A DNA stretch of 64,000 nt from Acidimicrobiia bacterium (GTDB lineage: Bacteria > Actinomycetota > Acidimicrobiia > Spongiisociales > Spongiisociaceae): contig WTGI01000067.1 of NCBI GenBank assembly GCA_011523635.1, positions 1 to 64,000 on the forward strand. The letters are read 5' to 3'. Every line of letters begins with the position of its first letter. The first letter of the stretch is position 1. Below are positions 1-53,507 of the stretch, in pieces. The notes below the pieces were generated by a model. It saw only the letters and a list, made by a program, of their open reading frames with translations, did not search any database and was not told the DNA's origin. A program made the translations under genes and the position numbers.

Positions 1-1179
1 GCCGAGTTCCGACTCGAAGCGGATCGCCCGGGCGCCGTTCTCCGCCGCGGCTCGCAGCACGGCCTCCGAATCGAGGCGTCCGACCTCGAGCAATCCCGGC
101 GTTCTCTGCAGGTAGGCGGCGAGGCGCAGCTCCTGCAAGAAGTCGCCGGAGTCGGAGAAGGAGATGTTGTCGGTGCCGAAGCACACCCGCCCGCCGCGGT
201 CCATGATGTCCCTCACCCGGGCTATCCCGGTGCTGAGCCGGAGGTTGGAGCCGGGATTGTTGACGGCCACCGCACCCGTGTCGGCGAGTATCGAGATGTC
301 CTCGTCGGTCGCCCAGACGAAATGAGAACACGACACGTCGGGCCCGAGCACGCCGAGATCCACCAGGCGGCGCATAGCCGTCTTGCCGTCGCTCTCCAGC
401 GCGTACATCATCTCGGAGCGGGTCTCGAGCACGTGCGTCATGATCCCCGTTCCGAACTCATCGGCCAGGCGCCGGTTCCGGACGTAGAGCTCGTCCGAGC
501 ACGCCGGCGTCCAGTCCGGGGCGAGCAGTATCCGGATGCGGCCGTCCCGGTGATCCCACCGCGAGACCAGGTCCCGGTAGGTGGCGAACACCTCTCCGAT
601 CGGCCATGCATAACCCATCGCCGATGCGCGCACGCGAGCAGCCAGATCCTCCGGGAGCATGGCGAGGAACGACTCGTCGTCGGCATGGACCAGGGTGTTC
701 CGGTCTCTCGTCACCACGCCGAGGGCCACGCGCACTCCGAGGTCCTCGTAGGCGGCCAGAATGGCGTCGTACCCGAAGTTGGGCAGACCCGACCGGCCGT
801 AGTTGAGGTCGACGAACCCGGTCTGGCCTCCCCGCACATCGTTCATGACGTTGGCCAGCACCGCGTGGTAGAGGTCTTCCTCGGTGACAGGGCTCCACAT
901 GCCATGCAAGTGGACGTTGGCCCGCTCGAAGATGTACTGGGCCATGCCCCTGCTCAGGGCCGAACCCGAGTGGTAGTGACCGTTGATGAAGCCCGGAAGG
1001 ACTGCATGGCGGGGAGATCCGACCCGCCGGTCGAACGGACCGAGGCCCTCCAGATCGCTCCTCTTTCCGATCCTTACTACGGTCCGATCCTCGACGACGA
1101 GCGCGCCGTCCCGGATATACCCCGGGGAAGCATCACCAAGGACGACGAGGGGATCTCCCATCACCAGCGTCCGGCTCAC
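1..1179 (-). CDS. Amidohydrolase family protein (ATZ/TRZ-like), C-terminus beyond window
   Basis: A cytosolic metal-dependent hydrolase of the amidohydrolase superfamily, whose members deaminate or dechlorinate N-heterocycles. The gene runs off the left edge, and 393 codons are visible. The metal-binding HYH lies at residues 68-70 (context FINGHYHSG). Further on come a conserved histidine in SHFVW, a VNNPGSN block and the GTDN aspartate, in the usual family order. I chose the GTG at 1179 because AGAGG sits just upstream and the family's first beta strand follows. An in-frame ATG at 1221 would add 14 residues. It is divergent from the acyl-CoA cassette, and a related hydrolase lies at 5443-6792. 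The substrate cannot be read from sequence. Confidence 0.85.
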   Translation of the reverse strand, partial: MSRTLVMGDPLVVLGDASPGYIRDGALVVEDRTVVRIGKRSDLEGLGPFDRRVGSPRHAVLPGFINGHYHSGSALSRGMAQYIFERANVHLHGMWSPVTEEDLYHAVLANVMNDVRGGQTGFVDLNYGRSGLPNFGYDAILAAYEDLGVRVALGVVTRDRNTLVHADDESFLAMLPEDLAARVRASAMGYAWPIGEVFATYRDLVSRWDHRDGRIRILLAPDWTPACSDELYVRNRRLADEFGTGIMTHVLETRSEMMYALESDGKTAMRRLVDLGVLGPDVSCSHFVWATDEDISILADTGAVAVNNPGSNLRLSTGIARVRDIMDRGGRVCFGTDNISFSDSGDFLQELRLAAYLQRTPGLLEVGRLDSEAVLRAAAENGARAIRFESELG

Positions 1180-1220
1180 CGTGGTCCTCTCACCCTGGTC
1201 CTCCTTCGGTGACCTGACCA

Positions 1221-1252
1221 TAGCCCTAATTATTCATGTTCCCAGCACACCA
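1221..1252. repeat. 32-bp dispersed repeat, copy A
   Basis: This stretch (core ATTCATGTTCCCAGCACACC) recurs in inverted orientation at 42285-42316 with about 30 of 32 positions identical. Here it lies between the start of the left amidohydrolase and the divergent ATP-grasp gene. Its left part, AATTATTCATG (1228-1238), is also one arm of a local inverted repeat ending at 1414. Function is unknown; a small mobile-element end or a conserved regulatory site would both fit. Confidence 0.6.
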
Positions 1253-1432: not shown

Positions 1433-2581
1433 GTGAGGTTGCTGGAGCACGAGTCCAAGGCCCGCCTGGCCGGGGCCGGGGTGAGGGTTCCAAGAGGCGC
1501 CGTCGCCACCACACCGGAACAGGCCGGGTCTGCCGCGCCGGCGCTGGGCCACGAGGTCTTCGTCAAGGCGTTAGTCCCGGCGAACCGGCGGTCGAAGAAC
1601 AACGGCGTGATCGGCCCCATCGGGCCGGACGGCGTGGCGCGAGCGGCGCATGAGCTGCTCGACTCCCGGATCCTGGGCCATCGGTGCCGGTCGGTATACG
1701 TGGAGGAGGCTGTCGCCGTGGCCGGAGAGCTCTATGCCGCCTTCTCGTGGGGGCCTCGCGGTCCCCGGGTCACCGCATCCGGCGCAGGAGGCGTGGACAT
1801 CGAGAGTTCGGGCGATGCGCTGGTCCATCTTGACTTAGAGGGGTCGGCAGACCTTTCCAGAGGCCGGGCGGAGCGTCTCTGGCGGCGGGCGCTGGGCGAC
1901 TCCCGGGTCCCGACTGCCCTGGTCGACATGACCGTGTCCGCAGCCGGCGCCTTCTTCCACGATGCGCTGCTGGTGGAACTGAACCCGCTCGCCAGGTTCG
2001 CCGACGGGTCCTTCACCGCAGTCGGAGCGCTGATCGAAATGGACGGCAACGCACTCTTCAGACATCCGGAACTCCGTTGGCGTCCCGACGGGCTCAGCCA
2101 GCGGGAGGCCGTCGTGGCAGAGGCCGACCGCCGGCTTCCGGGCGCCTCTGTGCGTTACGTGGAACTGGCCGGCGATACGGGGCTGCTGGTGGGCGGGGGC
2201 GGCGCCGGGCTCTACCAGCACGATCTGCTGGTCCAAGCGGGTGTGCGGCCGGCCAACCACAGCGACCTGGGCGCCGGGGTATCGGCCGAGAAGCTGGACG
2301 TGCTGATCGAGGCCGTGCTCGGCCACCCCAACCTCTCGCGCCTGCTGGTCAGCTTCAACATCCTCCAGTTGGCCCCGTGCGACCTCATCATGGAGAGACT
2401 CCTGGTCGGGCTGGACCGGATGGGCGACCGGGACGGCCCGATCCCGGTGGTGGTGCGGCTTGAGGGCCTCAACGCCGATCGGGCCCGGAGGCTGGCGGCA
2501 GGATGCGCCGGTTTGCGGTACCTTCCGTCCGGAGCGAGCCTGGGAGAGGCGGTGGACACCCTGGTCAGGATCAGCCGGTGA
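1433..2581 (+). CDS. Succinyl-CoA synthetase beta-like ATP-grasp subunit
   Basis: This is the ATP-grasp subunit of an ADP- or GDP-forming acyl-CoA synthetase. The 382-aa length matches SucC. The N-terminus (LLEHESKARLAGAGV) is the SucC-type opening of the ATP-grasp fold. The C-terminal half has the CoA-ligase flavodoxin-like domain, with GAGLYQHDLL, a SFNILQLAPCD block where SucC has its NIFGG-type motif, and VVRLEGLNADRA. Start is GTG without a clear Shine-Dalgarno. The stop overlaps the GTG of the biotin carrier by 4 nt, and an alpha-like subunit follows. Together they probably form an acid-thiol ligase. The acid is unknown, and malate- or succinate-type thiokinase are alternatives. Confidence 0.82.
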   Translation: MRLLEHESKARLAGAGVRVPRGAVATTPEQAGSAAPALGHEVFVKALVPANRRSKNNGVIGPIGPDGVARAAHELLDSRILGHRCRSVYVEEAVAVAGELYAAFSWGPRGPRVTASGAGGVDIESSGDALVHLDLEGSADLSRGRAERLWRRALGDSRVPTALVDMTVSAAGAFFHDALLVELNPLARFADGSFTAVGALIEMDGNALFRHPELRWRPDGLSQREAVVAEADRRLPGASVRYVELAGDTGLLVGGGGAGLYQHDLLVQAGVRPANHSDLGAGVSAEKLDVLIEAVLGHPNLSRLLVSFNILQLAPCDLIMERLLVGLDRMGDRDGPIPVVVRLEGLNADRARRLAAGCAGLRYLPSGASLGEAVDTLVRISR

Positions 2582-2796
2582 TCGTCCGAGCCGACATGGC
2601 GTCGATCGTCTGGCGGATAACCGTCGCCGAAGGCGAACGGGTGCGAGCCGGACAGGAGCTCCTCATCCTCGAGTCGATGAAGATGGAGATGCCCGTCCTC
2701 GCTCCGGTGGCCGGGATGGTGGCCGATATCCCGGTGGCTGAGGGCGATGTCATCGAGGCGGGTGACGCGCTGGTGCGGATCGAACGCAGCCGGTGA
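2578..2796 (+). CDS. Biotin carboxyl carrier domain protein, 72 aa
   Basis: A stand-alone biotinyl (biotin/lipoyl attachment) domain. The biotinylation motif ESMKMEMP places the modified lysine at residue 35. The flanking hammerhead has GERVRAGQELLILE before it and EGDVIEAGDALVRIE after it. I chose the GTG at 2578 because it overlaps the upstream stop (GTGA) and gives exactly one domain. It overlaps the next gene by another GTGA, so translation of all three is probably coupled. It should carry carboxybiotin for the carboxyltransferase at 3796. No biotin carboxylase gene is visible in the window, so CO2 loading must be supplied elsewhere, or the module runs as a decarboxylase or transcarboxylase. 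Confidence 0.88.
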   Translation: MIVRADMASIVWRITVAEGERVRAGQELLILESMKMEMPVLAPVAGMVADIPVAEGDVIEAGDALVRIERSR

Positions 2797-3680
2797 GCAT
2801 CCTGGTCGACGAGCGGACCCGGATCCTGGTCCAGGGCATAACCGGCTCCGTAGGCCGGGTGGATACCCGGCTCTGCCTCGACTACGGATCCCGGATCGTG
2901 GCCGGCGTCACGCCCGGACGGGGCGGGGAATCGGTCTCGGGGGTTCCGGTCTTCGATACGGTGGCCGAAGCAGTCGAGCGGACCGGGGCCACCGCGGCGG
3001 TTCAGTACGTGCCCGCCCGCCATGCGGCCGGCGCGGTGGTGGAGGCGGCCTCATCCGGCCTGTCGCCGATCGTGGCCATTGCCGAGAACCTGCCCCGGCA
3101 TGATGCCTGGCAGGCCGCCGTCGCCGCCCGGGACGCCGGTTCGGTCCTGATCGGGTTCAATACCAACGGCATCATCTCACCGGGGAGGACGAAGCTGGGG
3201 GGTATCGGCGGGCCGAGGCCCGACGACCTGTTCCGCCCCGGAACCGTGGGTGTGTGCTCCCGGTCGGGGGGAATGTCCGCCGAGATCGCCCGCTCGCTTG
3301 CCAGCGCAGGCAGCGGCGTCTCGACCTGCGTGTCAATGGGTGGGGAGTCGATCACCGGAAGAACCATGGCCGAGTACGCCCGCTGGTTCGAGGCGGACGA
3401 AGCCACCCGCAGCATCGTGGTCTTCGGCGAGCCCGGATCCGAACATGAGGCCCAACTGGCCGCCGTCATGGAGCGCGGCGAGGTCACCAAACCGGTCGTG
3501 GCGATGGTCGTGGGCCGGTTCCAGGACGCCTACCCGGCCGGATCCTCATTCGGCCACCTTTCGGCGATGGTGCGGCTCGAGACCGACCGTGCGGTGGTGA
3601 AGCGTGACATGCTGGCGGCTGCCGGAGCTCTGATAGCGGAGCGTGTGGAGGACATCCCCGATCTGATAGAAAGGTGCTGA
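2793..3680 (+). CDS. Succinyl-CoA synthetase alpha-like subunit
   Basis: The CoA-binding and phosphohistidine subunit that pairs with 1433-2581. Its 295 aa equal SucD length. The N-terminal CoA-binding Rossmann part opens ILVQGITGSVGRVDT, and FNTNGIISPG matches the NCPGII-type segment. The ligase domain begins GTVGVCSRSGGM. A Gly-His in SSFGHLSAMV aligns with the SucD GHAGA histidine that is phosphorylated. GTG start is translationally coupled to the biotin carrier. The last codons and stop lie inside the left end of a 100-bp repeat (3672-3771), so the present C-terminus may have been set by that insertion. Confidence 0.82.
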   Translation: MSILVDERTRILVQGITGSVGRVDTRLCLDYGSRIVAGVTPGRGGESVSGVPVFDTVAEAVERTGATAAVQYVPARHAAGAVVEAASSGLSPIVAIAENLPRHDAWQAAVAARDAGSVLIGFNTNGIISPGRTKLGGIGGPRPDDLFRPGTVGVCSRSGGMSAEIARSLASAGSGVSTCVSMGGESITGRTMAEYARWFEADEATRSIVVFGEPGSEHEAQLAAVMERGEVTKPVVAMVVGRFQDAYPAGSSFGHLSAMVRLETDRAVVKRDMLAAAGALIAERVEDIPDLIERC

Positions 3681-3771
3681 AAGAGACGGGGATTGGTTGG
3701 CCTGCGACCCCTTTACCTGGGGGTTTGTTCCGACTATCGGCCCAACCGGACACTTTTCAGTACCCTCCTAG
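3672..3771. repeat. ~100-bp repeat with imperfect terminal inverted repeats, copy 1
   Basis: The segment from AGGTGCTGAAAGAGAC to TTTTCAGTACCCTCCTAG has a second copy at 19467-19567 with the same length and order. Blocks such as GGTGCTGAAA, GATYGGTTGG, ACCTGGGG and the TTTYAGTACCC end are shared. The ends form imperfect inverted repeats (GGTGCTGAAAAA against GGGTACTAAAAA). It carries no gene. Copy 1 provides the stop codon of the SCS alpha-like gene. I read it as a non-autonomous mobile element or REP-like repeat. Confidence 0.65.
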
Positions 3772-3795
3772 CGTCAGGACCGGGATGGATGCGGG

Positions 3796-5352
3796 ATGAT
3801 CTGGGATCCAGAACTCGAGGAGATGGAGCGCCGGAAGGCGTTCGCGCTCTCGATGGGCGGGGACGAGGCGGTGGCCCGCCAGCACGACGCCGGCCGGCTC
3901 ACCGCCAGGGAGAGGATCGCGCTCCTGCTCGACGAGGGCACCTGGCAGGAGATCGGGACCTTCACCGGTGCGGCCATCTACGATGCGGAGGGCCGGCTCG
4001 TCAGCGTCAAGCCGGCCAACACCATCATCGGCACCGGCCGGGTCCGCAGCCGCCGGGTAGCCATCGAAGCCGACGACTACACGATCAGGGGCGGCTCGAC
4101 GGAAGCGCAGATCTCGGAGAAGTGGGAGTTCATCAACCGGTATGCGCTGGAGATGCGGATGCCAATGATCCGTCTCGTGGAGAACGTCGGGGGAAGTGTC
4201 CGCCTGCTCGAGAAGATGGGGCGGACCAAGATCCCCGGATACCGCATGTGGCCCCTCGCCGGGATGCTCGGCTACGTACCCGTGGTGGCCCTGGTGCTGG
4301 GTCCGTCAGCGGGTCTCGGTCCTATGAAGGCCGCCAGCAGCCACTTCTCGGTGATGGTCCGCGGTACCAGCCAGGTGTTCGCGGCCGGTCCTCCGGTGGC
4401 GCGGGTCGCCCTGGGCCGGGACATCGACAAGGAGGAACTCGGAGGCGCCCACATCCACACCGAGGAAAGCGGAGTCATCGACAACGCGGCCGACTCGGAG
4501 GAGGAGGCGATCTGCCAGGCGCGCCAGTTCCTCTCCTACCTTCCGCAGAGCGTGTTCGAGCTGCCTCCCCACCGACCGTCCGACGATGCGCCCGACCGGG
4601 CCGAGGAGGAGTTGGCTTCGATCATCCCGCGTAACCAGCGCCGGGTCTACGACTCGCGGAGGCTCCTCTCGCTGGTCTTCGACCGTGGCACGCTCTTCGA
4701 GATCGCCCCCGCCTACGGACCTTCGTCCATCACGATGCTGGCCCGCCTCAACGGTTACCCGGTCGGGGTGATCGCCAACGATCCCTACCGGTTCGGGGGC
4801 GGCCTGACCCGAGCCGCTGCCGAGAAGGTCGAGACGTTCGTGGATCTGTGCGACACCTTCCACGTTCCGATAGTGAACTTCGTGGACCAGCCCGGCACCG
4901 TGATCGGGCTGGAAGCCGAGCGCGAAGGAGCGGTGCGGGGAACCATCCGCCTCATCTCGGCCATCGAGCAGTCGCGCGTTCCGTGGTGCGGCATGATCGT
5001 GCGGCGGCTCTTCGGTCTGGCGGGCACCAGCTACGGCCGGCTGCAGGGGCTGAACCTTCACTATGCATGGCCGTCCGCCCGGTGGGGTTCAATCCCGATC
5101 CAGGGCGGGGTGAGAGCGGCCTTCCGCCGGGAACTCGATGCCTTGCCCCCCGAGGATGCGGCGGAGCGGCTCGCCGTGTTGGAGGAGCAATACGACGCGC
5201 TGTCGTCACCATTCCGGACGGCGGAGGCCTTCGGGGTTCCGGAGATCATCGATCCCCGCCGGACCAGATCCGTCCTGTGCCAGTGGATCGAGGACGCGTA
5301 TGCCCTGCTCCCCGAGCAACTGGGGCCGACAACCCGTACCATGCGCCGGTAG
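3796..5352 (+). CDS. Acyl-CoA carboxyltransferase (biotin-dependent)
   Basis: Carboxyltransferase of the propionyl/acetyl-CoA carboxylase beta or methylmalonyl-CoA decarboxylase type. It moves a carboxyl group between biotin and an acyl-CoA in the cytosol. The 518-aa length is typical. The two crotonase-like halves are visible: N-terminal with GRLTARERIALLLDEGTW and IRLVENVGGSVR, C-terminal with NDPYRFGGGLTRAAAEK and VPIVNFVDQPG. Start is ATG at 3796, 25 bp after the 100-bp repeat. With the biotin carrier at 2578 it forms a two-protein carboxylase core missing only a biotin carboxylase. Linked to an acyl-CoA synthetase, it may process the CoA ester that enzyme makes. Confidence 0.88.
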   Translation: MIWDPELEEMERRKAFALSMGGDEAVARQHDAGRLTARERIALLLDEGTWQEIGTFTGAAIYDAEGRLVSVKPANTIIGTGRVRSRRVAIEADDYTIRGGSTEAQISEKWEFINRYALEMRMPMIRLVENVGGSVRLLEKMGRTKIPGYRMWPLAGMLGYVPVVALVLGPSAGLGPMKAASSHFSVMVRGTSQVFAAGPPVARVALGRDIDKEELGGAHIHTEESGVIDNAADSEEEAICQARQFLSYLPQSVFELPPHRPSDDAPDRAEEELASIIPRNQRRVYDSRRLLSLVFDRGTLFEIAPAYGPSSITMLARLNGYPVGVIANDPYRFGGGLTRAAAEKVETFVDLCDTFHVPIVNFVDQPGTVIGLEAEREGAVRGTIRLISAIEQSRVPWCGMIVRRLFGLAGTSYGRLQGLNLHYAWPSARWGSIPIQGGVRAAFRRELDALPPEDAAERLAVLEEQYDALSSPFRTAEAFGVPEIIDPRRTRSVLCQWIEDAYALLPEQLGPTTRTMRR

Positions 5353-5442: not shown

Positions 5443-6792
5443 GTGGCCGATCGGATCATCATCGAGAACGCTGCCATCGTGACCATGAACGAAGAGGACG
5501 ATGTGATCTTCGACGGGTCGATGGTCATAGAGGGCAACCGGATAGTCGCCGTCGGGGGTTCCGAGGCGGCGTCCGGATATGACCGCGCCGGCGCGAAGGT
5601 CATCGACGCCGGCGGGAAGGCGGCCCTCCCGGGGTTCGTGGACCTCCACTACCACACCGCCATAGGGAAGGGATACTGCGACCATCTGGATCTGTGGGAG
5701 ATACTGCAGGCGTTCTGGTATCCGATGATCCGGGCCCTCAATCCCGAAGAGGCCTACTGGGCGGCCATGGCCAGCTACAGCGAGTCGTTGAAGGCCGGCG
5801 TCACCACCGCCAACGACATGTTCCGCCAACTCCCGGCGCTGGCGCGGGCGGCGGTCGATAGCGGGATCCGCGTGGTTCTCTCCAACGACATCGCTGACCC
5901 GGAGCACGACCTCGACGTGATCGAGGACAACGAATCGGCCTACCACGAGTGCCACGGGATGGGCGACGGGCGGGTGGAGGTCTACGTGGGTATCGAGTGG
6001 CTACCCCTCGCCTCCGAGCAACTGCTGGTGGACTGCCGGGCGCTGGCCGACCAGTTGGGGACCGGTATCCACATCCACCTGAACGAGTCCCTCGGCGAGG
6101 TCGAGATCTCCAAGCAGGCCTTCGGCGGGCGCCGGCCCACCGAGGTGGCGTACGACACCGGGATCCTGGGACCGGATTGCGTGGCCGCCCACTGCGTCCA
6201 CCTCTCGGACCGGGAGATCGGGCTCATGAGCGAGACAGGAACCCACATCTCCCACAACCCCACCTCCAACGCCAAGCTCGGCAACGGTATCGCCCGGCTT
6301 CCCGAGATGCTGGAGGCGGGACTCAACGTCGGCCTGGGTCACGACTCGGCGGAGGGCACCAATAGCTGCGACCTGTTCCAGGTGATGAAGTGGGCGTCGC
6401 TGGTGCATAGGGCCGAGCGCAAGGACGCCACGATCCTGCAAGCACCCGAGATCCTGCGGATGGCGACCAGGAACGGCGCGCGTGCCCTCGGCCATGAGAC
6501 GGGGGAGTTGAGCGTAGGGAAGGTGGCGGACGTGATACTGGTCAACATGCAGAACCACCACTTCACGCCATCGGTGCCGGGTAACAAGATCCATCTCATG
6601 TCACACCTGGTCTACAGCGCGGAGAGCGCTGCGGTCGACACCACCATCGTGGACGGCACGGTTGTGATGGAAGGGCGCGAGTTCCTGGCCTTCGACGAGG
6701 AGGAAGTGCTGGCGAAGGCGACCGAGAGCTTCTTCACCTGCACCGACCGGATGGAGGTTCCCGAGGAGTACGCTGGGCTCCTCGACCGGTAA
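5443..6792 (+). CDS. Amidohydrolase family protein (TRZ/ATZ, SAH-deaminase-like)
   Basis: A complete 449-aa amidohydrolase-superfamily enzyme likely to hydrolyse an amino or similar substituent on a heterocycle. Metal ligands are visible: HYH in VDLHYHTAIG near residue 70, a histidine in GIHIHLNES, a histidine in AAHCVHLSD, and the aspartate in LGHDSAEGTN. HNPTSNAKLGNG is the family's classic late block. Start is GTG, 5 nt after AGGAG. It follows the carboxyltransferase by 90 bp on the same strand and may share its transcript. It is related to, but not a duplicate of, the left-edge gene. Substrate is unresolved; guanine, triazine-like or creatinine-type rings are possible. Confidence 0.87.
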   Translation: MADRIIIENAAIVTMNEEDDVIFDGSMVIEGNRIVAVGGSEAASGYDRAGAKVIDAGGKAALPGFVDLHYHTAIGKGYCDHLDLWEILQAFWYPMIRALNPEEAYWAAMASYSESLKAGVTTANDMFRQLPALARAAVDSGIRVVLSNDIADPEHDLDVIEDNESAYHECHGMGDGRVEVYVGIEWLPLASEQLLVDCRALADQLGTGIHIHLNESLGEVEISKQAFGGRRPTEVAYDTGILGPDCVAAHCVHLSDREIGLMSETGTHISHNPTSNAKLGNGIARLPEMLEAGLNVGLGHDSAEGTNSCDLFQVMKWASLVHRAERKDATILQAPEILRMATRNGARALGHETGELSVGKVADVILVNMQNHHFTPSVPGNKIHLMSHLVYSAESAAVDTTIVDGTVVMEGREFLAFDEEEVLAKATESFFTCTDRMEVPEEYAGLLDR

Positions 6793-7135: not shown

Positions 7136-8935
7136 GTGGATGCGACGAGTCTGAAGCCAGACACCCGTGCGGCACTGTGGATGGGCGTTTCGGTGTTCTC
7201 GATGTCCTGGGTTCCCCTCGTGGTGGCCCTCGTCGGGGCGAGCGTTGGTCCGTTTGTATTTCAATTCTGGCTCAATTTGGTAATATCTATAGTCTGGTTC
7301 ATCTATCTGATGTGGACTTGCCCGAGCCTGATCAGGCGAAAAGACATATGGATTTGGATCATTCGCCGCGTTCTTACACGTGACGGCGTACGAGCAATGC
7401 TGAACGGATTCAATTCGGCGCTCTTTGTGTCGGCTACTCTGTTTCTCGACACTGCTTTAGTGACGGTTATTACCGGCGGTTGGCTTATCCTGTTCGTTGC
7501 TTATCAGAAACGACATGACACTCGGACGCGCTATAGAGTCATCGTCGTGCAAGACTGGTTGTTGATGGGTATGGCAATGGCAGGCATCGCGCTTGTTACG
7601 TTGTCACAGTCTGGCGGTATAACGACTGAGGGAGGTGGATGGAGGCTCTTATGGGGCCTTCTGTTGGCAGCGTCTACTGCCGTCTCCCTCTCTTGGATAT
7701 CGTTTAGGTTCCGACTAGGAATAGACCTATACCACAGCAAGTATACAGGAACGTCGGAGATGCGAGATGATCGAAAGGCCGAGCTAGCCTGCGTACTTGC
7801 TGTGTCTATAGTAACAAACTCCGCTGGTTTATTGAGTAGCCTTCTCATTGGCCTGACCTTCTTTCCTGGTTATAGGGGACCAGGTACATATTTGGGAGGG
7901 TTTGTATCAGCCACAATCATCTGGATAGTCCTTGTCGGGATAGTAAGTTCATTGGGAAATATCGCTTTCCGTTACGCGAACTTACAAACCAAGAATCTCG
8001 GTGTTAACACGATGCAGTATCTTCGTCCGGTTCTATCATTAGTATGGTTGGGGTCCTTTGCTACTGTGACCGTCTCCCGAACCGATTTCCTCTTGATCGG
8101 CGCCACTGCGGTGATCGCGGTCAACGTCCTCATCAACTTCCGGTCCGAGGAACGGACCGGTTTCAAGTGGCTCATCGTGAGTTTGCTCGGATTCGGGTTT
8201 GTCGTCTATATGCGCGACGAATGGTTCACTCACATTCCCGGATACGGATGGTTCCCAGCCTTCGGAGACTACTACGGGTTGTTGGGTGCGGGCGCAACTG
8301 TATTCGTTCTTATCCTGTCGTTCCGCACGTCACGTCTGAACCCTCGTACGATTGGTGAAGGACAGCAAGCCGACGCACTTTGGCGACAACTGGCTGGGCT
8401 TCCGGCAGACGGAGAGAACCGTATGACCATGCTGAACCACATTCGTACCATCGACACCACCAACGACGTCACCAGACTGACTGAGGCATACGAACACGTA
8501 AGGCATCAGATAGAGACGGCCGGATTAGCTCGTTCTGAGTCCGCGCGTCTGCAAGCCAACCTCGACACGTTGGTGAATAGCAGACAACGTGGCCGGAATA
8601 TCGCTGAACTGATAGTACTTGTCATGCTGGCGGTCGTAGTGGCGGGAATCGCAGTGTTCGCTCGCATCGAAGCGGAAGTATGGCCCACACTCCTAAACGA
8701 TGTACTCTCAATGCTGCTCGCATCGGTCGTGACCTTCATGACGATTCACCTGTTCGACCGGCGCTCCGAACGTGACAATCCCGTAATCACAGAAACCGGG
8801 TCGGTTCTGTTCCGTGACACCGCTCGCAGCGCGGAGCAGAACCCTAAGGTGGAACAAACGATCTCAATCGGGATAGGTGTCGCGATTGTCGGTGTGTACA
8901 TATACTTGATGACTATCAAGTGGCTACCGGTCTGA
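7136..8935 (+). CDS. EamA/DMT-like multi-spanning membrane protein with C-terminal extension
   Basis: An integral membrane protein of 599 aa, about twice the length of a usual EamA drug/metabolite transporter. The first ~330 residues hold about ten hydrophobic segments and a typical DMT end, with RYANLQTKNLGVNTMQYL then LRPVLSLVWLG. Two or three more helices follow. A soluble helical stretch (about residues 405-490) then leads into three further membrane segments at the C-terminus. Start is GTG with AGAGAGG upstream. Codon use is much more A/T-rich than in both neighbours, which suggests transfer. It stands alone with no co-oriented partner. Transported substrate is unknown; it could instead be a sensor or effector. 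Confidence 0.8.
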   Translation: MDATSLKPDTRAALWMGVSVFSMSWVPLVVALVGASVGPFVFQFWLNLVISIVWFIYLMWTCPSLIRRKDIWIWIIRRVLTRDGVRAMLNGFNSALFVSATLFLDTALVTVITGGWLILFVAYQKRHDTRTRYRVIVVQDWLLMGMAMAGIALVTLSQSGGITTEGGGWRLLWGLLLAASTAVSLSWISFRFRLGIDLYHSKYTGTSEMRDDRKAELACVLAVSIVTNSAGLLSSLLIGLTFFPGYRGPGTYLGGFVSATIIWIVLVGIVSSLGNIAFRYANLQTKNLGVNTMQYLRPVLSLVWLGSFATVTVSRTDFLLIGATAVIAVNVLINFRSEERTGFKWLIVSLLGFGFVVYMRDEWFTHIPGYGWFPAFGDYYGLLGAGATVFVLILSFRTSRLNPRTIGEGQQADALWRQLAGLPADGENRMTMLNHIRTIDTTNDVTRLTEAYEHVRHQIETAGLARSESARLQANLDTLVNSRQRGRNIAELIVLVMLAVVVAGIAVFARIEAEVWPTLLNDVLSMLLASVVTFMTIHLFDRRSERDNPVITETGSVLFRDTARSAEQNPKVEQTISIGIGVAIVGVYIYLMTIKWLPV

Positions 8936-9077: not shown

Positions 9078-9506
9078 CTAGCGACGGGTTTCTACCAACT
9101 CCACCAGCAGGCCGTCGAACTCGCGGGGATGGACGAATGCGATCATGGTGCCCATCCCGCCCGGGCGTGGCTGCTCGTCGATGAGTTGAACACCGAGGCT
9201 GCGGAGCCGCCGGAGATACTCCCCGAGATCCGGCACCTCGAAGGCGATATGGTGCAGCGCGGAGCCGCGCTTGTCCACAAACTTGCCGACCACCCCGGGT
9301 CCGGTCGCTTCCAGGGTCTGGACGAAGCCGTCCCCGACCGGGAGCATCCTCTCGGTGAATCCCGGTCCGCCTTCCTCGTGGCAGACGGGGACGCCAAGCA
9401 ACTCAGCGAACCGGTCGTGTGGAGCGGACGTCGGGGGGTGCGCGAAGGCGACGTGGTGGATCCTGAGCGGGGGTGGCCATGCGGAAGGGATCGGTTCGCG
9501 GGCCAT
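9078..9506 (-). CDS. VOC family protein, methylmalonyl-CoA epimerase-like
   Basis: A 142-aa vicinal-oxygen-chelate protein that probably interconverts the 2-epimers of methylmalonyl-CoA or a similar acyl-CoA. The metal-binding pattern of the epimerase is visible: His in RIHHVAFA, Gln in FVQTLEATG, His in ALHHIAFEV, and Glu near the end in LLVELVE. Start is ATG at 9506, sharing one base with the stop of the LLM gene (TAATG), so it is co-translated downstream of it. The mutase genes at 12787-14780 lie upstream in the same coupled array, which supports the assignment. Confidence 0.82.
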   Translation of the reverse strand: MAREPIPSAWPPPLRIHHVAFAHPPTSAPHDRFAELLGVPVCHEEGGPGFTERMLPVGDGFVQTLEATGPGVVGKFVDKRGSALHHIAFEVPDLGEYLRRLRSLGVQLIDEQPRPGGMGTMIAFVHPREFDGLLVELVETRR

Positions 9507-10489
9507 TACAGACGGGCGAAGACCCTGGAGAACGCCTCGATCGTCTCCCGGCGCCGGGAACCGAGCGGGAACACGGTCACCGAGTCCACTCCCAGATCGG
9601 CCAGGGTCCGGAGGTGGGCCAGCGCCTGGTCGCTGTCGCCGGCGAAGGCCATCTTCTCCACGAACCCCCGGGGCATGATCGAGGCCGCGGCCAGTGCCTC
9701 CTGGAACTCGCCTCCCGCGTAACGAACCTTGACGTCGGCCGAGATGGCGGGGTCCAGTCCGGCCAGCTCGCAGTAGACCGGCGCGGTCTGGGGGAACCAG
9801 GCCGCGATCGAGCGGGCGGCCTCCAAGGCGCCGGCGGGATCATCGTCGTCGATCGCTCCGTAGCCGAACACCGACACGTGGGGGCGGGACCGCCCTGCTC
9901 GTTCGGCGCCCCGGTCGATGTGCTCCAACCCGTAGGCGACTCCATCCCGGAACAGGCCGCCCAGGAAGATGACCCCGTCGGCTATCTCGCCGGCCAACTC
10001 GAGGGTCTTGGGCCCGCTCGCCGAGATGAACACCGGAATCCGGTAGGAGGCTTCGAACCGCAGGTGGGCGTCGTCCATCGTGAATCCCGCGCCCTCGTAG
10101 GTCACGTGTTCGCCGGCGAGGAGCCGGCGGATCACCTCGATCGACTGCCGCATCTCCAAGAGCCGGGCCGGCCGCAGGCCGAGCGAGCGGAGCGGACGGT
10201 CACCGGCGCCGATGCCGAGGACGGTCCTTCCGGGCGCCAGCTCCTCGAGGCTGGCCGCGTTGACGGCGACGATGCCGGGATGGCGGGTCTGCGGGTTGGT
10301 CACCGCGGTTCCCAGCACCATGCGGGTGGTCAACCTCGCGGCCAGGGTGAGGTGCATGTACGGGTTACGGGTGTGGAGGGAGGAGTCGGTGAGCCAGAGG
10401 TAGTCGTACCCGCACCGGTCCACCACCCGGACCATGTCCTCGAAAACGTGGGGAGGGTAACGACCCTGTAGGGCTACACCGGTCTGCAT
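9506..10489 (-). CDS. LLM-class (F420-type) oxidoreductase
   Basis: A luciferase-like TIM-barrel flavin or F420 oxidoreductase, 327 aa. Recognisable parts are GYDYLWLTDSSLH, PQTRHPGIVAVNAAS, the LGIGAGDRPLRSLGLRPA loop, and IPVFISASGPKTLELAGEIAD, which is the usual mer/F420-dependent pattern. It lies 4 bp after the M20 hydrolase gene and shares a base with the epimerase gene. The substrate is unknown. Its presence in an acyl-CoA and peptide-degrading array suggests it oxidises or reduces a pathway intermediate. F420 is a reasonable cofactor given the actinobacterial setting, but FMN cannot be excluded. Confidence 0.82.
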   Translation of the reverse strand: MQTGVALQGRYPPHVFEDMVRVVDRCGYDYLWLTDSSLHTRNPYMHLTLAARLTTRMVLGTAVTNPQTRHPGIVAVNAASLEELAPGRTVLGIGAGDRPLRSLGLRPARLLEMRQSIEVIRRLLAGEHVTYEGAGFTMDDAHLRFEASYRIPVFISASGPKTLELAGEIADGVIFLGGLFRDGVAYGLEHIDRGAERAGRSRPHVSVFGYGAIDDDDPAGALEAARSIAAWFPQTAPVYCELAGLDPAISADVKVRYAGGEFQEALAAASIMPRGFVEKMAFAGDSDQALAHLRTLADLGVDSVTVFPLGSRRRETIEAFSRVFARL

Positions 10490-10493
10490 ACGA

Positions 10494-11585
10494 TCATCCT
10501 GCCTTCCTGTCGTACCGGACGATGGTATCGGCCAGGGCGGCGAGCCCGGTTCCGATCGGCTCCGTCTCGATCCACTCCCCGGGGGTGTGCTCGCCGGATC
10601 CGAAGGTGATGCCGATAGTGACCGCCGGGATCCCGGCCGCGTAGGCCGCGTTGGCGTCGGTGCTGGCTGCGACGTGTTCCGGATCGATCCCGACGGCGGC
10701 CAGGGCCGCGTCGGCGGCCGCCACCAGGGGATGCGTCTCCGCGATCGATCCCGCCGGTCGCTTACCCAGTTCCTTGTAGGTGGTCGCCAGCTGTGTTCCA
10801 GAGTCCACCACGCGGCGCGCCGCGGAGTCGAGGTCGACCAGGACCGTCGGGTCGGCGGAGCGAATGTCCGTCCGAAGGGCGGCGCGGCGGGCGCGGGCGT
10901 TGATCGACTCGCCGCCCTCGATCTGCCCGACGTTGAGAGAAGACCGCGCTCGGGCCCTGGCGCCCGGTAGCAGGCCTTCCAGACTCACGATGATCCTCGC
11001 CAGGTCGTGGATGGCGCTGGGGGCGTCGGCGGCCTCCCAGGAATGCCCTCCCGGACCCTCGAGTTCGAGCAGCCAGCGGATCGATCCGACACCCACCGTC
11101 GCCACACGCCCGAGGTAGTTGCCCTCCAGGGCGATGAGAACGCCCATCCCGGCGGGAGGATGCCCCACGAGGTGAAGCGCTCCGGCGAGGTTGCCCAGGC
11201 CCTCCTCGGCGGTGGTGGCAGCTATCCACACGGGCCGCGACAGGTCCTTCGGAAGGAGGCGGTCGAGCAGAGATAGGGCTGCGACGGCCACGGTGTTGTC
11301 ACCGACCCCGATGCCGTAGAGCCGGCCGTCCCGCTGCTCGGTTCCATGTGGGATGTCCCGGCCGAAGACCGTGTCGAGGTGGGCGGCTACGAACGTTGCC
11401 GGACCTTCTCCCGTGCGGATTCGGGCGACAATATTCCCAACCCGGTCGACCTGCGGCCGCAGCCCGTCCGTGCGCCACCATCGGGCCACGACCGCCGCCC
11501 GGTCAGCCTCGTCGAGGGGAGGCGCCGGGACCGCCGCCAACTCGACGGTGCGGGCGAGGACGACCGCAGCTGCATCATCGGTCAT
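10494..11585 (-). CDS. M20 family metallohydrolase
   Basis: A 363-aa dizinc hydrolase of the M20 family (aminoacylase/ArgE/carboxypeptidase type). Metal ligands look intact: VAAHLDTVFG, YGIGVGDNT, the catalytic Glu pair in TTAEEGLGN, and a late His in GSGEHTPGEW. The lid domain contains GPGGHSWEA. I chose the ATG at 11585 because it overlaps the CoA-transferase stop (ATGA). Longer readings upstream run through that gene. It likely cleaves an N-acyl or peptide bond. It contrasts with the M20 homologue at 15736-16926, which lacks key residues. Confidence 0.84.
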   Translation of the reverse strand: MTDDAAAVVLARTVELAAVPAPPLDEADRAAVVARWWRTDGLRPQVDRVGNIVARIRTGEGPATFVAAHLDTVFGRDIPHGTEQRDGRLYGIGVGDNTVAVAALSLLDRLLPKDLSRPVWIAATTAEEGLGNLAGALHLVGHPPAGMGVLIALEGNYLGRVATVGVGSIRWLLELEGPGGHSWEAADAPSAIHDLARIIVSLEGLLPGARARARSSLNVGQIEGGESINARARRAALRTDIRSADPTVLVDLDSAARRVVDSGTQLATTYKELGKRPAGSIAETHPLVAAADAALAAVGIDPEHVAASTDANAAYAAGIPAVTIGITFGSGEHTPGEWIETEPIGTGLAALADTIVRYDRKAG

Positions 11586-12790
11586 CCCGGCTCGGCCGCC
11601 ATCCCGCCTGCGATGAGGGCATCGACGTAGGCCGGCTCCATTCCGGCCTGGAGGAGCGACTCCCGCGTGTGCTGGCCGAGCAGGGGTGCAGGCCCGGGGA
11701 TCGGCAGGGGTTCGCGGTCGATCCGGAGAGGGAGGCCGATCGCAGGGTAGGCGCCCGCCAAGTCGTGCACCAGCGTCTGCACCGAGCCGAGGGCCCGTGC
11801 CTGGGACCCGTCCAGCACCCCGCCGATGTCGTTGATACGGTCCGCGGGCACCTGAGCTTCTGCGAACAGGGCCAGCCACTCGGCGACGTCCTTACCGGTG
11901 GTGATCGACTCGATCTCGGCGGTCAGTTCATCACGAGCCGCCACCCGGGAGGCGTTATCGGCGAAGCGGGGGTCTTCCACCAGGTGCGCTGCGCCGAGCG
12001 TCTCGCAGAAACGCCGCCACAACGCCTCCGATCCGGCGCCGGCTGCCACGAAGTGCCCGTCGCGGGCGCGGAACGCTCCGTAGGGAGCGAAGGTGGGGGA
12101 GTGGCTGCCCAACAGGCCCGGCAGCTCGCCGTTCACGAGGTACGCCGTCGCTACCGTGGCCAGCGTGGCCAGCGAGAACTCGAGCAGCGACGTGGAGACC
12201 TGGCGCCCGAGGCCGGTTCGTTCCCGTTCGGCCAGCGCGGCGAGCACCCCGACGACGCAGGCGAGACCGGCGCCGATGTCGGTGACCGGGACCCCGATCT
12301 TGGCGGGGCCGGTGGATCGATGGCCGGTGACGCTCATCAGGCCGCCGGAGGCCTGGAGAATGAGATCGAACCCGCCCTTCCCGGCGTCGGGACCCACGTC
12401 CCCGAATCCGGAGACCGACCCGTAGACCAGGGAGGGGAAACGGGCGTGGACAGATGGGTAGTCGAGTCCGTACTTGGCGAGGCTGCCGGGCCGCCCGTTC
12501 TCCAGCAGGACATCCGCAGAGGCCAGCAGCGCATCCATCGCGGGGCGGGCATCCTCCGCCCGGAAGTCGAGAGCGACGCTCTTCTTGGCACTGTTGAGGG
12601 TCATGAACAGCACCGACTCGTCCCCCACGCGCGCCGTTCCCTGGTTCCGGTAGGGGTCGCCCCCGGCCGGGCCCTCGATCTTGAGAACCTCCGCGCCCAA
12701 GGTCGCCAGGATGAAGGAGGCGTATGCCCCCGAGACGAATCTGGTCAGGTCCACCACCCGGAGGCCGTCCAGCATGCCCCCTCCGCTCAC
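11582..12790 (-). CDS. CaiB/BaiF family CoA-transferase
   Basis: Type III CoA-transferase, 402 aa, moving CoA between carboxylic acids. N-terminal LDGLRVVDLTRFVSGAYAS and LGAEVLKIEGPAGGD are family hallmarks. The catalytic aspartate is probably the D in GVPVTDIGAG, aligned with Asp169 of formyl-CoA transferase, and ERERTGLGRQVSTSL follows it. It overlaps the mutase gene by 4 nt upstream and the M20 gene by 4 nt downstream. It may activate the substrate of the mutase with CoA, or move CoA from the product. Confidence 0.88.
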   Translation of the reverse strand: MSGGGMLDGLRVVDLTRFVSGAYASFILATLGAEVLKIEGPAGGDPYRNQGTARVGDESVLFMTLNSAKKSVALDFRAEDARPAMDALLASADVLLENGRPGSLAKYGLDYPSVHARFPSLVYGSVSGFGDVGPDAGKGGFDLILQASGGLMSVTGHRSTGPAKIGVPVTDIGAGLACVVGVLAALAERERTGLGRQVSTSLLEFSLATLATVATAYLVNGELPGLLGSHSPTFAPYGAFRARDGHFVAAGAGSEALWRRFCETLGAAHLVEDPRFADNASRVAARDELTAEIESITTGKDVAEWLALFAEAQVPADRINDIGGVLDGSQARALGSVQTLVHDLAGAYPAIGLPLRIDREPLPIPGPAPLLGQHTRESLLQAGMEPAYVDALIAGGMAAEPG

Positions 12791-14379
12791 CAGGGGCTCG
12801 GTTCCCGGAACTCGCCGAACTCGTCCCGCATCACGTCGCTCATCTCACCCAGCGTCACTCCGACCCTCGCGCAGTCCAAGATCGGGGGCATGGCGTTGGC
12901 TCCGCTGCGCAGAGCCTCCCGCAGGGCCGCGAGCGTCGTCCCGGCCGCCGGCTCGTCCCGGGCGGCCTTTCTCCGTTCCGTCCGAGCGATCTGGAGATCC
13001 CCGATCTCGGGATCCAGCGTGAACAGGCGGGGCTCATGCTGTGCCTGCGAGTCGTCCACGTAACGGTTCACGCCCACCCGAACCCTGGATCCGTCGGCGA
13101 TCTCCCGCTCCGTCCGGTAGGCCTCCGCCGCTATCCACCGCTGCGGTGTTCCCGACTCGAGTGCCTTGACCGCTCCTCCCAGTTCCTCGACGGCCGTCAT
13201 GACCTCGCGGGCCCGGCGCTCCACCTCGTCGGTGAGCGACTCGACGTAATAGGAACCCGCCAGGGCGTCGACCGTATCCGCGACCCCGGACTCGTGCGCC
13301 ACGATCTGCTGCGTCCGCAGGGACAGGGTGACGGCCTCCTCGGTGGGTAGTTCGTAGGCCTCGTCATAGCCCATCACGTGTATGGACTGGGCGCCCCCCA
13401 ACACCGCGCCCAGGCACTGGATAGTCGAGCGGATGATGTTGTTGAGCGGCTGCGCGGCGGTGAGGGTGGTTCCCGAGTTCCCGGAGAAGAAGCGAAGCCG
13501 TGCCGAGCGGGGGTCCTTGGCGCCGAAGCGGGTGGTGGCCGTGTCATGCCAGAGTCGCCGGGCCGCCCGCAGCTTGGCGACCTCCTCGAACAGGTTCATT
13601 GTGGTGGCGAAGTGGAATGAAAACCGGGGCGCGAAAGAGTCGAACGGGAGTCCTCGCGCCTCCAGTTCCTCGGCGTAGGCGATGGCGGATGACATGGTCA
13701 GGCCCAACTCCTGGACAGCATTGCATCCGGCCTCCCTGGCGTGATACCCGGTCACGGAGATCGGGTTGAAACGGGGCAGGTGTTCGGACGACCACTCGAC
13801 GATGTCCGCCACCAGCCGCATGGACGCTGCCGGCGGAAAGATGAAGGCCTTGCGGGCCAGGAACTCCTTGAGCAGATCGTTCTGGAGCGTCCCCGACAGG
13901 TCCGTATAGGACGCGCCCTGGCGTTCAGCCGTCACCAGGTAGAAGGCCAGGATGATCGGCGCCGTGGCATTGATGGTGAAGTTCACCGAGAGCTTGTCGA
14001 GGGGCAGACCTTCGAACAACCCCGCCATGTCGTCGGCGGTGTCGATGGCCACTCCCACCCGGCCGACCTCGGCGCGGGCCATGGGGTGCGAGGAGTCGTA
14101 GCCGAGTTGGGTCGGGAGGTCGAAGGCGACCGAGAGCGCGGTCTGGCCCTGTTCCAGCAGGAAGCGGAAGCGATCGTTGGCGTCCTCGGCGCTGCCGTAC
14201 CCGGCGAACTGGCGCATCGTCCAGAGGCGCCCCCGGTACATCGTCTCGTACGGCCCCCTGGTGAAGGGCGGGTGGCCCGGGAGACCCAGCTGTTCATCGG
14301 GCCGGAACCCCTCCAGATCGTCCTGCGTGTAGAGGGGAGCGACCGGGATGCCCGAGTCGGTACGGCGCTCGCCGGTCAT
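12787..14379 (-). CDS. Acyl-CoA mutase large subunit (methylmalonyl-CoA mutase-like, B12-less part)
   Basis: Substrate-binding TIM-barrel subunit of a split adenosylcobalamin-dependent mutase, 530 aa. Motifs include PFTRGPYETMYRGRLWTM, SVAFDLPTQLGYDS, SGTLQNDLLKEF (Gln166), PPAASMRLVADI (Arg188) and SVTGYHAREAG (His213). The residue after RQ is Phe58 (LWTMRQFAGYG), where methylmalonyl-CoA mutase has the carboxylate-contacting Tyr89. The equivalent of Arg207 is kept. The B12 subunit is encoded directly upstream with an ATGA overlap. The epimerase-like gene downstream favours a methylmalonyl-type reaction, but the Phe points to an altered substrate such as isobutyryl- or another branched acyl-CoA. 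Confidence 0.88.
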   Translation of the reverse strand: MTGERRTDSGIPVAPLYTQDDLEGFRPDEQLGLPGHPPFTRGPYETMYRGRLWTMRQFAGYGSAEDANDRFRFLLEQGQTALSVAFDLPTQLGYDSSHPMARAEVGRVGVAIDTADDMAGLFEGLPLDKLSVNFTINATAPIILAFYLVTAERQGASYTDLSGTLQNDLLKEFLARKAFIFPPAASMRLVADIVEWSSEHLPRFNPISVTGYHAREAGCNAVQELGLTMSSAIAYAEELEARGLPFDSFAPRFSFHFATTMNLFEEVAKLRAARRLWHDTATTRFGAKDPRSARLRFFSGNSGTTLTAAQPLNNIIRSTIQCLGAVLGGAQSIHVMGYDEAYELPTEEAVTLSLRTQQIVAHESGVADTVDALAGSYYVESLTDEVERRAREVMTAVEELGGAVKALESGTPQRWIAAEAYRTEREIADGSRVRVGVNRYVDDSQAQHEPRLFTLDPEIGDLQIARTERRKAARDEPAAGTTLAALREALRSGANAMPPILDCARVGVTLGEMSDVMRDEFGEFREPSPW

Positions 14380-14780
14380 GGCGCGACGGCCGCAGAGGCC
14401 TCGCGGAACATCCCGTCCACCACCTCATCCAGGGGGGATCCGACCGGAAAGACCCGGGAGATCCCGATCTCCCTCAGGGCGTCGGCGTCGGCCTCGGGAA
14501 TGGTCCCACCGATGACGATCGGAACGTCAGCAATGCCGGCCTTGCCTCGTTCCTCCACCAGTTGGCGGCCGAGGGCTAGGTGGGCTCCGGACAGCACCGA
14601 GATGCCGATCACGTCCGCGCTCTCCTCGATCGCCGCGGTGACAATCCGCTCCGGTGATTGCCGGAGGCCGAGAAAGATCACCTCGGCGCCGGCATCCCGG
14701 AGGGCCATCGCGATGACCTTCACGCCGCGGTCGTGGCCGTCGAGACCGGGCTTGGCCAGGAGGATCCGGGGCCTGCTCAT
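14376..14780 (-). CDS. Cobalamin-binding subunit of acyl-CoA mutase
   Basis: The small B12-binding subunit of the split mutase, 134 aa. The base-off cobalamin motif DxHxxG is present as GLDGHDRG, making His16 the cobalt ligand. The downstream SVLSGAH and VIGGTIPEADA segments are the usual nucleotide-tail contacts. ATG start overlaps the stop of the upstream hydrolase gene, and its own stop overlaps the large-subunit start, so stoichiometric coupled synthesis is likely. The length fits the independent B12 subunits seen in archaeal and actinobacterial mutases. Confidence 0.92.
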   Translation of the reverse strand: MSRPRILLAKPGLDGHDRGVKVIAMALRDAGAEVIFLGLRQSPERIVTAAIEESADVIGISVLSGAHLALGRQLVEERGKAGIADVPIVIGGTIPEADADALREIGISRVFPVGSPLDEVVDGMFREASAAVAP

Positions 14781-19466: not shown

Positions 19467-19567
19467 AGGTGCTGAAAAAGACGAGGATCGGTTGGTCCGT
19501 GACGTCTTGACCTGGGGCTTCGGTTCGGGATATCGGGCCTACTGGACATTTTTTAGTACCCGCCTAG
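19467..19567. repeat. ~100-bp repeat with imperfect terminal inverted repeats, copy 2
   Basis: Second copy of the repeat at 3672-3771, from AGGTGCTGAAAAAGAC to TTTTTTAGTACCCGCCTAG. Length and block order agree. The ends pair as GGTGCTGAAAAA / GGGTACTAAAAA. It lies between the aldehyde and alcohol dehydrogenase genes and contributes the TAG stop (19564-19566) of the alcohol dehydrogenase, as copy 1 does for its neighbour. No coding capacity. Confidence 0.65.
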
Positions 19568-20598
19568 GCCAGGGCGAGGATCTGGCGGCCGAGCACCCGC
19601 CGTTGCCTCAGGTTCTCCAGTGCTTCGCCCGCTCCGTCGAGCGGGTAGGTGGCGGCCACCGGTACCGAGATGTGCCCGCCCGCGGCCAGGCGGATGGCGT
19701 CGTCCAGGTCGCGAACGGTGGCTGCGACGGTGGAGACCCAGACGGTCTCGGGCAGGATGAACTCGATCGGATGGACCTCCAGCGACTCGCCTGTGTACCC
19801 GGTGGAAACGAACCGGCCGTGCTTGGCCAGGGAGCGGAGGCCGGCCAGCATGGTCTTGGTCGTTCCAACCAACTCAAAGAACAGGTCGGTACCGCGGCCT
19901 CCCGTCAACTCACGGATCCGGTCGGGCAGGTCGTCGTAGCCCGCGGCGTCGGGCACCACCACCCCTCCGGAGGCGCCGTACGACCTGGCCATCTCCAGCT
20001 TGTCCTCGGTGTCGGCGACGGCGAGGACCCGGGCGCCGGCCAGGACGGCGACCTGCAGGACCATCGAGCCGACCCCGCCGATGCCGTTCACCACGGCCGT
20101 ATCGCCGACGCTCATGTTCGATAGCCGGGCCGCATGGACCGCGGTCATGCCGGCGCATGCGAGGACGGAGGCGGTTCCGAAGTCCACGCTGTCGGGAAGC
20201 GCCACGAGGTTGCGGGCAGGAGCGTTGATGTACTCCGCATACCCTCCGTCCAAGTTGAAGCCGAACTGCCCGGGCTCGTTGTCGCAGATGTTCTGGCGGC
20301 CGACCAGGCACTGCTCGCACGCACCGCAGAAGATCTTGTTGTAGACGGCCACCCGGTCGCCGACCGACACGGTCGATCCGTCACCGACCTCGACCACCAC
20401 TCCGGCCGCCTCATGTCCCACGGTCATCGGGTACTCGTCGGGCTGGATCATCCCTTCCAGAACATGCAGATCGGTGGCGCACACCCCCGCCGCATGGAGC
20501 CGGACCAGGGCCTCGCCCGGTCCCGGAGAGGACCTCTCCACATCGTTCACGTTCAGGCTCAGGTCTTCGTGAACCTGTGCGGCCTTCATCGTTGGCAT
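19564..20598 (-). CDS. Zinc-dependent alcohol dehydrogenase (MDR family)
   Basis: A medium-chain dehydrogenase, 344 aa. Catalytic zinc ligands are in GVCATDLHV and VGHEAAGVV. Structural zinc is bound by the four Cys of CGACEQCLVGRQNIC. The Rossmann motif is GIGGVGSMVLQVAV. I chose the ATG at 20598 because GGAGG stands 8 nt before it. The stop codon is supplied by the 100-bp repeat. It is likely to oxidise an alcohol whose aldehyde is the substrate of the downstream aldehyde dehydrogenase. Confidence 0.92.
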   Translation of the reverse strand: MPTMKAAQVHEDLSLNVNDVERSSPGPGEALVRLHAAGVCATDLHVLEGMIQPDEYPMTVGHEAAGVVVEVGDGSTVSVGDRVAVYNKIFCGACEQCLVGRQNICDNEPGQFGFNLDGGYAEYINAPARNLVALPDSVDFGTASVLACAGMTAVHAARLSNMSVGDTAVVNGIGGVGSMVLQVAVLAGARVLAVADTEDKLEMARSYGASGGVVVPDAAGYDDLPDRIRELTGGRGTDLFFELVGTTKTMLAGLRSLAKHGRFVSTGYTGESLEVHPIEFILPETVWVSTVAATVRDLDDAIRLAAGGHISVPVAATYPLDGAGEALENLRQRRVLGRQILALA

Positions 20599-50121: not shown

Positions 50122-50329
50122 AGGCCGCAAGATACGACGAGCATCGCCCGACCGTCAAACCGGACTCTGGATCGAAAAGGATCCGTCAATGTTCTATCGG
50201 TGAAGCCGATGGATCGGTTCGGAAATCATCGTTGGACACCTGCTCGCATTTCCCTTACCTTCGGGCTACGACCACTAATGGAACGGGCCAGGCGTCCTGG
50301 CCTTCACCGATCAGGAGGCTGTTGAAACC

Positions 50330-51805: not shown

Positions 51806-51821
51806 GCCTGCCGGACGGTCC

Positions 51822-52415: not shown

Positions 52416-52520
52416 AGGGGGTGTGATGGTCACAGCTGAGACGATCGGCGGCAGGCGTTCCACCGGGTGTCCACCGATAAGATCATCCGGCGGCGTAGCG
52501 GCACGACAGGAGAGCTAGAG

Positions 52521-53504: not shown

Positions 53505-53507
53505 TCC

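Follow-up and report, generated by a model that had tools for sequence, protein, structure and literature searches.

The first 64,000 nucleotides of a contig from an Acidimicrobiia bacterium (hereafter the window, whose position 1 is also that of contig C91 in a 3.1-Mb assembly that is 97% complete) carry a cassette of four genes at positions 1433 to 5352, in which a small biotin carrier lies between the two subunits of a predicted acyl-coenzyme A (CoA) synthetase and is followed by a carboxyltransferase (CT). The cassette is real, conserved and built from known families, and it is apparently undescribed, as no description of such a cassette was found in the open-access literature searched. 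We regard it as an evenly balanced proposition that the cassette covers the two opening steps of a parallel route of the methylmalonyl-CoA type for a short organic acid, fed by the single biotin carboxylase (BC) of the genome, which is encoded on another contig (C55). The features of the cassette are:

1433 to 2581, plus strand: beta subunit of a succinyl-CoA synthetase (SCS)-like, ADP-forming acyl-CoA synthetase (GTG start, 382 residues; ATP-grasp_2)
2578 to 2796, plus strand: free-standing biotin carboxyl carrier protein (GTG start, 72 codons, ESMKMEMP motif; Biotin_lipoyl, PRK05889)
2793 to 3680, plus strand: alpha subunit of the SCS-like acyl-CoA synthetase (GTG start, 295 residues; CoA_binding and Ligase_CoA)
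3684 to 3790, no strand assigned: dispersed repeat of ~107 bp between alpha and CT
3796 to 5352, plus strand: CT of the CT-B subfamily (518 residues; Carboxyl_trans)

The order beta, carrier, alpha and CT, the gene sizes and the GTGA overlaps on both sides of the 72-codon carrier had been described in a first-pass annotation of the window, and the coordinates and domains agree with that description. The beta/carrier and carrier/alpha junctions are likewise GTGA overlaps in the related loci L046, L047, L050 and L069, and in L048 they are a longer overlap and a TTGA. The interleaved gene order would give translational coupling and is not evidence of one physical complex. In three genomes (that of the window, G000, as well as G272 and G290), the ~107-bp repeat separates alpha from CT, alters the C-terminus of alpha and abolishes the alpha/CT overlap; in the remaining cassette genomes, which lack the repeat, alpha overlaps or abuts CT. 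Further copies of the repeat lie at 19479-19581 of the window and between the CT and BC genes of C55 (L136, 6079-6165), the copies being 76-82% identical.

We looked for the four-gene order in other genomes and found it in six more, all of the same family (G176, G272, G290, G317, G325 and G367), which makes 7 of the 395 genomes of the class, from two genera, with identities of 70-97% per gene. A phylum-wide search with beta gave no cassette beyond this one family (best match 39%). The nearest public records are metagenome-assembled genomes labelled Acidimicrobiia or bacterium, whose isolate names suggest an association with sponges. About 40 other Acidimicrobiia hold CTs that are 42-52% identical to that of the cassette; those inspected form a separate clade and were rejected as possible cassettes, being orphans in unrelated neighbourhoods. 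A CT relative with 59% identity in G309 (L051) falls closer to the Variovorax CT-B proteins described below.

The beta subunit matches Pfam ATP-grasp_2 (E 8e-20) and is aligned by the sucC models across residues 1-357; its score lies under the SucC equivalog cut-off (163.6 vs. 370 bits), as that of alpha lies under the SucD cut-off (251.5 vs. 336 bits). An AlphaFold model of alpha compared with E. coli SucD gave a Z of 40 and a root-mean-square deviation (rmsd) of 1.7, and the model of beta compared with SCS beta gave a Z of ~29 and an rmsd of ~7, with differing domain positions. In the comparison with E. coli SucCD, the phosphohistidine H255 and the glutamates E213 and E98 of alpha are invariant and the CoA-binding motif is kept, and the beta residues K45, R53, K55, E182 and N184, the counterparts of E. 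coli K46, R54, K56, E197 and N199, are invariant as well. By fold and catalytic residues, the alpha/beta pair is hence a predicted ADP-forming acyl-CoA synthetase. Three loops that we take to be substrate-binding differ from E. coli SucCD (GGIV to LQLAP in beta; TPG to TNG and SGTLTYE to SGGMSAE in alpha), and, since these loops are unlike those of SucCD, the substrate is probably other than succinate. The canonical SCS of the same genome is encoded separately, on C36. In the alpha tree, the seven cassette genomes form a clade with the alphaproteobacterium G439 outside all SucD (support 100/100, branch of 2.49 changes per column). On C1, the window's genome encodes another alpha/beta pair of SCS type, its third (L101, 7312-9392); this pair has no carrier, its beta is 37% identical to the cassette beta, and the pair, which has a long branch in the alpha tree, also occurs in relatives without the cassette.

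The carrier matches Biotin_lipoyl (E 3e-18) and clears the NCBIfam PRK05889 cut-off (80.8 vs. 75 bits). A CT and a biotinyl carrier with an MKM motif are therefore both present, as in acyl-CoA carboxylases of the propionyl-CoA carboxylase/acetyl-CoA carboxylase (PCC/ACC) type. The CT scores 296 bits against Carboxyl_trans, and its best model is mmdA, the methylmalonyl-CoA decarboxylase alpha subunit (300 bits vs. a cut-off of 999). In the CT tree, one clade (99/96), which adjoins the Variovorax CT-B, unites the CT-B proteins of the window with those of Reyranella and G439. The CT-A proteins make up a family apart, and the C55 CT falls with PccB. The CTs of the window and of C55 are the two that the genome has, and the latter has a BC-carrier fusion and a canonical mutase as neighbours, a set that is an ordinary propionyl-CoA pathway.

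No BC gene is present in the 64-kb window, in keeping with the first-pass annotation, and a genome-wide family search found one true BC only, that of C55, a fusion with a carrier of its own; two further strong ATP-grasp matches (C24 and C70) are pieces of carbamoyl-phosphate synthase (CarB). The annotation had allowed that a BC gene of the operon just outside the window, along with normal propionyl-CoA carboxylase activity and no role for the synthetase, would undo its idea of a coupled function. A BC gene cut off just beyond the operon was rejected, as a divergent gene occupies the left end of the contig and an amidohydrolase gene lies downstream.

Relatives of the cassette proteins outside the family were found in other bacteria. 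The best CT matches are those of Reyranella (L049, 65%), the alphaproteobacterium G439 (63%) and Variovorax plasmids (L112 and L172, 52%). G439 also holds the best outside relatives of alpha (61%) and beta (42%), ~7 kb from its 63% CT. A free carrier and a CT of another type (CT-A) accompany them, and no BC was found in the ~50 kb read around this cluster. The pairing of the synthetase subfamily with CT-B and a carrier is thus old or co-transferred. The G439 carrier follows CT-A, ~5 kb from the synthetase genes; because it does not lie between beta and alpha, the interleaving is a local rearrangement special to one family. In Reyranella, CT-B stands with two class III CoA-transferases, a CT-A, a carrier and a BC, and the Variovorax plasmids carry two side-by-side modules, each with a CoA-transferase, CT-A, CT-B and a carrier of 73 codons, with a BC in one module only. 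The function of these two-module sets is apparently undescribed so far. Plasmid sequences searched with beta gave no match, and those searched with alpha gave only SucD-like matches of ~40%. The G439 cluster (G439:C3; L132, L149 and L150) further contains, as named by eye, fdrA, a DUF1116/ylbE-like gene, and genes for a carbamate kinase, an AtzF-like amidase and a nucleobase permease, as well as hydantoinase-type hyuA/hyuB, LeuCD-like dehydratases and an isocitrate-lyase-family gene. These neighbours suggest the breakdown of nitrogen heterocycles.

The genes around the cassette in the window are:

1 to 1221, minus strand: divergent amidohydrolase, 5′ of the cassette, running off the contig
5443 to 6792, plus strand: TRZ/ATZ-type amidohydrolase (aminohydrolase/deaminase-like), which follows CT and closes the operon as its last gene (Amidohydro_1, E 8e-62)
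9078 to 9506, minus strand: methylmalonyl-CoA-epimerase-like VOC protein (TIGR03081, 88.1 bits, under the cut-off of 114.95)
11582 to 12790, minus strand: class III CoA-transferase of the CaiB/BaiF type (CoA_transf_3, E 2e-113)
12787 to 14379, minus strand: large subunit of a B12-dependent acyl-CoA mutase of the Phe/Arg active-site type (TIGR00641, 647 bits)
14376 to 14780, minus strand: B12-binding small subunit of the mutase (TIGR00640, 143 bits, over the cut-off)

The minus-strand group at 9078-14780 also includes an LLM oxidoreductase and an M20 hydrolase, and the best model for its CoA-transferase is succinate-glutarate CoA-transferase (275 bits vs. a cut-off of 750). The amidohydrolase gene at 5443-6792 extends the operon beyond the four genes named in the first-pass annotation. 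The divergent amidohydrolase is found 5′ of the cassette in L046, L047, L050 and L069 too. In the second genus (L048 and L050), the genes directly 5′ of beta in the same operon are those of another epimerase-like VOC protein and of an AMP-forming ligase; the L050 VOC protein scores 84.3 bits against TIGR03081, again under the 114.95 cut-off.

Among the 15 genomes of the family, homologues of the last gene of the operon (89-99% identical) and of this second B12 mutase (at least 83%) are present in all seven that have the cassette and in none of the eight that lack it. The mutase lies within ~9 kb of the cassette in six of the seven and on another contig in G367. All seven cassette mutases have Phe and Arg at the two diagnostic positions, in the motifs RQFAGYG and LARKAFIFPP, and so depart from the methylmalonyl-CoA mutase signature (Tyr in RQYAGF and Arg in KEF..R); canonical mutases, including that of C55, are Tyr/Arg, and the isobutyryl-CoA-mutase-like one is Phe/Gln. 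The closest solved structure to the window mutase is 2-hydroxyisobutyryl-CoA mutase (510 vs. 440 bits). The diagnostic Arg presumably holds the free carboxylate of the substrate, so that the substrate is likely a dicarboxylyl-CoA, and the replacement of Tyr by Phe fits one other than methylmalonyl-CoA. A truncated third mutase fragment, on C49 (L135, 695-1513), matches only the C-terminal half of MM_CoA_mutase (positions 265-510).

Two further observations concern the window. A 599-residue multi-pass membrane protein without a Pfam match is encoded at 7136-8935; it is present in L046 and missing at the same position in L069 and L050. A second catabolic cluster at 49114-57957 comprises, by eye, a predicted aromatic 3-monooxygenase-like gene, a flavin reductase, an extradiol-dioxygenase-like gene and hydantoinase-like genes.

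In the route that we propose, the alpha/beta pair, whose fold and residues are described above, would act as an ADP-forming acid-CoA ligase working via the phosphohistidine on a substrate that is putatively not succinate. The 72-residue carrier and CT-B would then carboxylate the acyl-CoA to a malonyl-type CoA ester, and the biotin would be recharged by the C55 BC. A third step would fall to the epimerase-like VOC protein and the second B12 mutase, whose genes lie on the other strand at a distance of 4-9 kb; they could convert this product to a succinyl-type CoA ester, which we infer from family, location and co-occurrence. The acid itself would probably be released by the hydrolases of the same cluster. 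Since CT-B stands with a CoA-transferase in Reyranella and Variovorax, the scheme of activation with CoA followed by carboxylation holds despite the change of activating enzyme. We favour the carboxylating direction on two grounds: a BC accompanies CT-B in two of the modules found elsewhere, and the BC-less Variovorax module adjoins the BC-bearing one. This last arrangement, together with the presence of the C55 BC, also makes the sharing of a BC plausible.

Several observations weigh against this proposal. At the presumed biotin/CoA sites, CT-B has GGSV in the N-domain and FGLAG in the C-domain, where PccB has SGGAR and FGGAY. In beta, Gly replaces the counterpart of E. coli D213, which we take to be a Mg ligand, not only in the window family but also in G439, and a Glu is conserved four positions further along; the GGRGKAGG loop reads NRRSKNNG in the window's family, and both changes bear on ATP use. 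The C55 BC comes as a fusion with a carrier, and it would have to charge a second one. None of the CT-B clusters read in G439, Reyranella and Variovorax has the mutase close by, so the link of the mutase to the cassette comes from one bacterial family, where the co-occurrence may partly reflect one linked island gained or lost together. Finally, there is no transporter or substrate clue that fixes the identity of the acid.

The strongest rival, which we consider possible and distinctly less probable, is that the reactions run in reverse: the ligase would activate a malonyl-type dicarboxylate (or, via the mutase, a succinyl-type one), CT-B and the carrier would decarboxylate it, and the carboxybiotin would be hydrolysed, used by another CT (a transcarboxylase) or consumed by a BC run in reverse. 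The lack of a BC in the cassette fits this direction, as do, most of all, the two CT types and one carrier of G439 with no BC in the stretch read, then the second Variovorax module, in which CT-A, CT-B and a carrier occur with no BC of the module itself, as a two-CT transcarboxylase would need, and the operon hydrolases, which suggest a free dicarboxylate as input. The closest CT model, mmdA, points the same way, but its score is far under the cut-off. Moreover, the window's family has no CT-A to act as partner, its only other CT grouping with PccB, and a dedicated BC is present in Reyranella and in the first Variovorax module. No 5S-type CT domain was found among the operon genes, the extent of the search for one, and no integral-membrane decarboxylase subunit was found in the operon or its 20-kb surroundings, to which that search was confined. 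A transcarboxylase, one of the functions put forward in the first-pass annotation, is thus compatible with the data but is not needed, given the C55 BC and the neighbouring BC-less and BC-bearing Variovorax modules. It is supported that the synthetase and the biotin CT are functionally joined, as their subfamilies co-occur in two phyla and the same CT stands beside a CoA-transferase in other bacteria. The other function that the annotation put forward, a special coupled machine, is not supported: the interleaving is confined to one family, and for a physical machine of synthetase and carboxylase there is no evidence.

That the pair and the carrier form one unit, with acyl-CoA synthesis linked directly to carboxybiotin chemistry, is in our view improbable. 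In such a unit, decarboxylation would supply the energy for activation with CoA, or the ATP-grasp pair would take over the charging of biotin from BC. About as doubtful is the specific version in which the SCS-like pair acts on the carrier itself, its ATP-grasp domain and phosphohistidine charging or discharging carboxybiotin and replacing BC. It would account for the carrier gene lying between the subunit genes with overlaps and for the absence of BC from the operon and from the G439 cluster as read, and BC is itself among the ATP-grasp enzymes. There is also a precedent for re-use of the SCS-like fold in FdrA/AllF, part of the oxamic transcarbamylase of E. coli (PMC11326118). In the cassette pair, the Mg ligand and nucleotide loop are altered, but the phosphohistidine with its glutamates and the CoA-binding domain with its motifs are intact, and an enzyme that charges the carrier would need no CoA. 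Furthermore, the G439 carrier is not between the subunits, and the genome already has a BC. If direct coupling of pair and carrier or biotin charging were true, either would amount to an unprecedented type of biotin enzyme. The least probable reading, that ordinary SucCD and propionyl-CoA carboxylase genes were joined by chance rearrangement, agrees with every gene coming from a well-known superfamily, but chance adjacency was rejected by the conservation in seven genomes and the recurrence in another phylum, and the separate canonical sets on C36 (SCS) and C55 (propionyl-CoA carboxylase and mutase), the own clades of alpha and CT and their scores well under the SucC, SucD and mmdA cut-offs likewise oppose it.

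For the proposed parallel route, the gene sets pose a concrete substrate question, and they could supply new carboxylases and ligases for synthetic carbon-fixation routes. This question is testable because the ligase subfamily and CT-B co-occur in two phyla and CT-B elsewhere stands with a CoA-transferase.

Compared with known systems, the synthetase shares its fold, phosphohistidine, ATP-grasp and CoA-binding domain with SucCD, malate-CoA ligase, citryl-CoA synthetase and ATP-citrate lyase, and we take the alpha motif SRSGGMS to recall the last of these. It differs from this group in its own clade, its scores under the NCBIfam cut-offs, its changed loops and the Gly at the D213 position of beta. 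The Propionibacterium transcarboxylase (12S, 5S and 1.3S) resembles the cassette in its 12S-like CT and its small free biotin carrier without a BC; however, the cassette has no 5S-type pyruvate/oxaloacetate subunit and includes an acyl-CoA synthetase instead. From the Na+-pumping decarboxylases (MmdABCD and GcdABCD), it differs in that a membrane decarboxylase subunit is not among the genes of the operon or its 20-kb neighbourhood. The Reyranella and Variovorax modules are alike in their orthologous CT-B, free carrier and CoA-activating enzyme, but this enzyme is a CoA-transferase rather than a ligase, and they have an additional CT-A and BC; tripartite tricarboxylate binding proteins are interspersed in the Variovorax modules, and the Reyranella module has an ABC transporter. 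The propionate/methylmalonyl-CoA pathway, the canonical set of which coexists on C55 in the same genome, shares CoA activation, a biotin CT with a carrier, a VOC epimerase-like protein and a two-subunit B12 mutase. The cassette differs from it in the ADP-forming SCS-like ligase, in CT-B in place of PccB, in the free 72-residue carrier, in a locus without BC and in the Phe/Arg mutase. In summary, these likenesses and differences point to a so far undescribed sister pathway to the methylmalonyl-CoA route, which has a CoA ligase subfamily and a CT subfamily of its own as well as a Phe/Arg B12 mutase.

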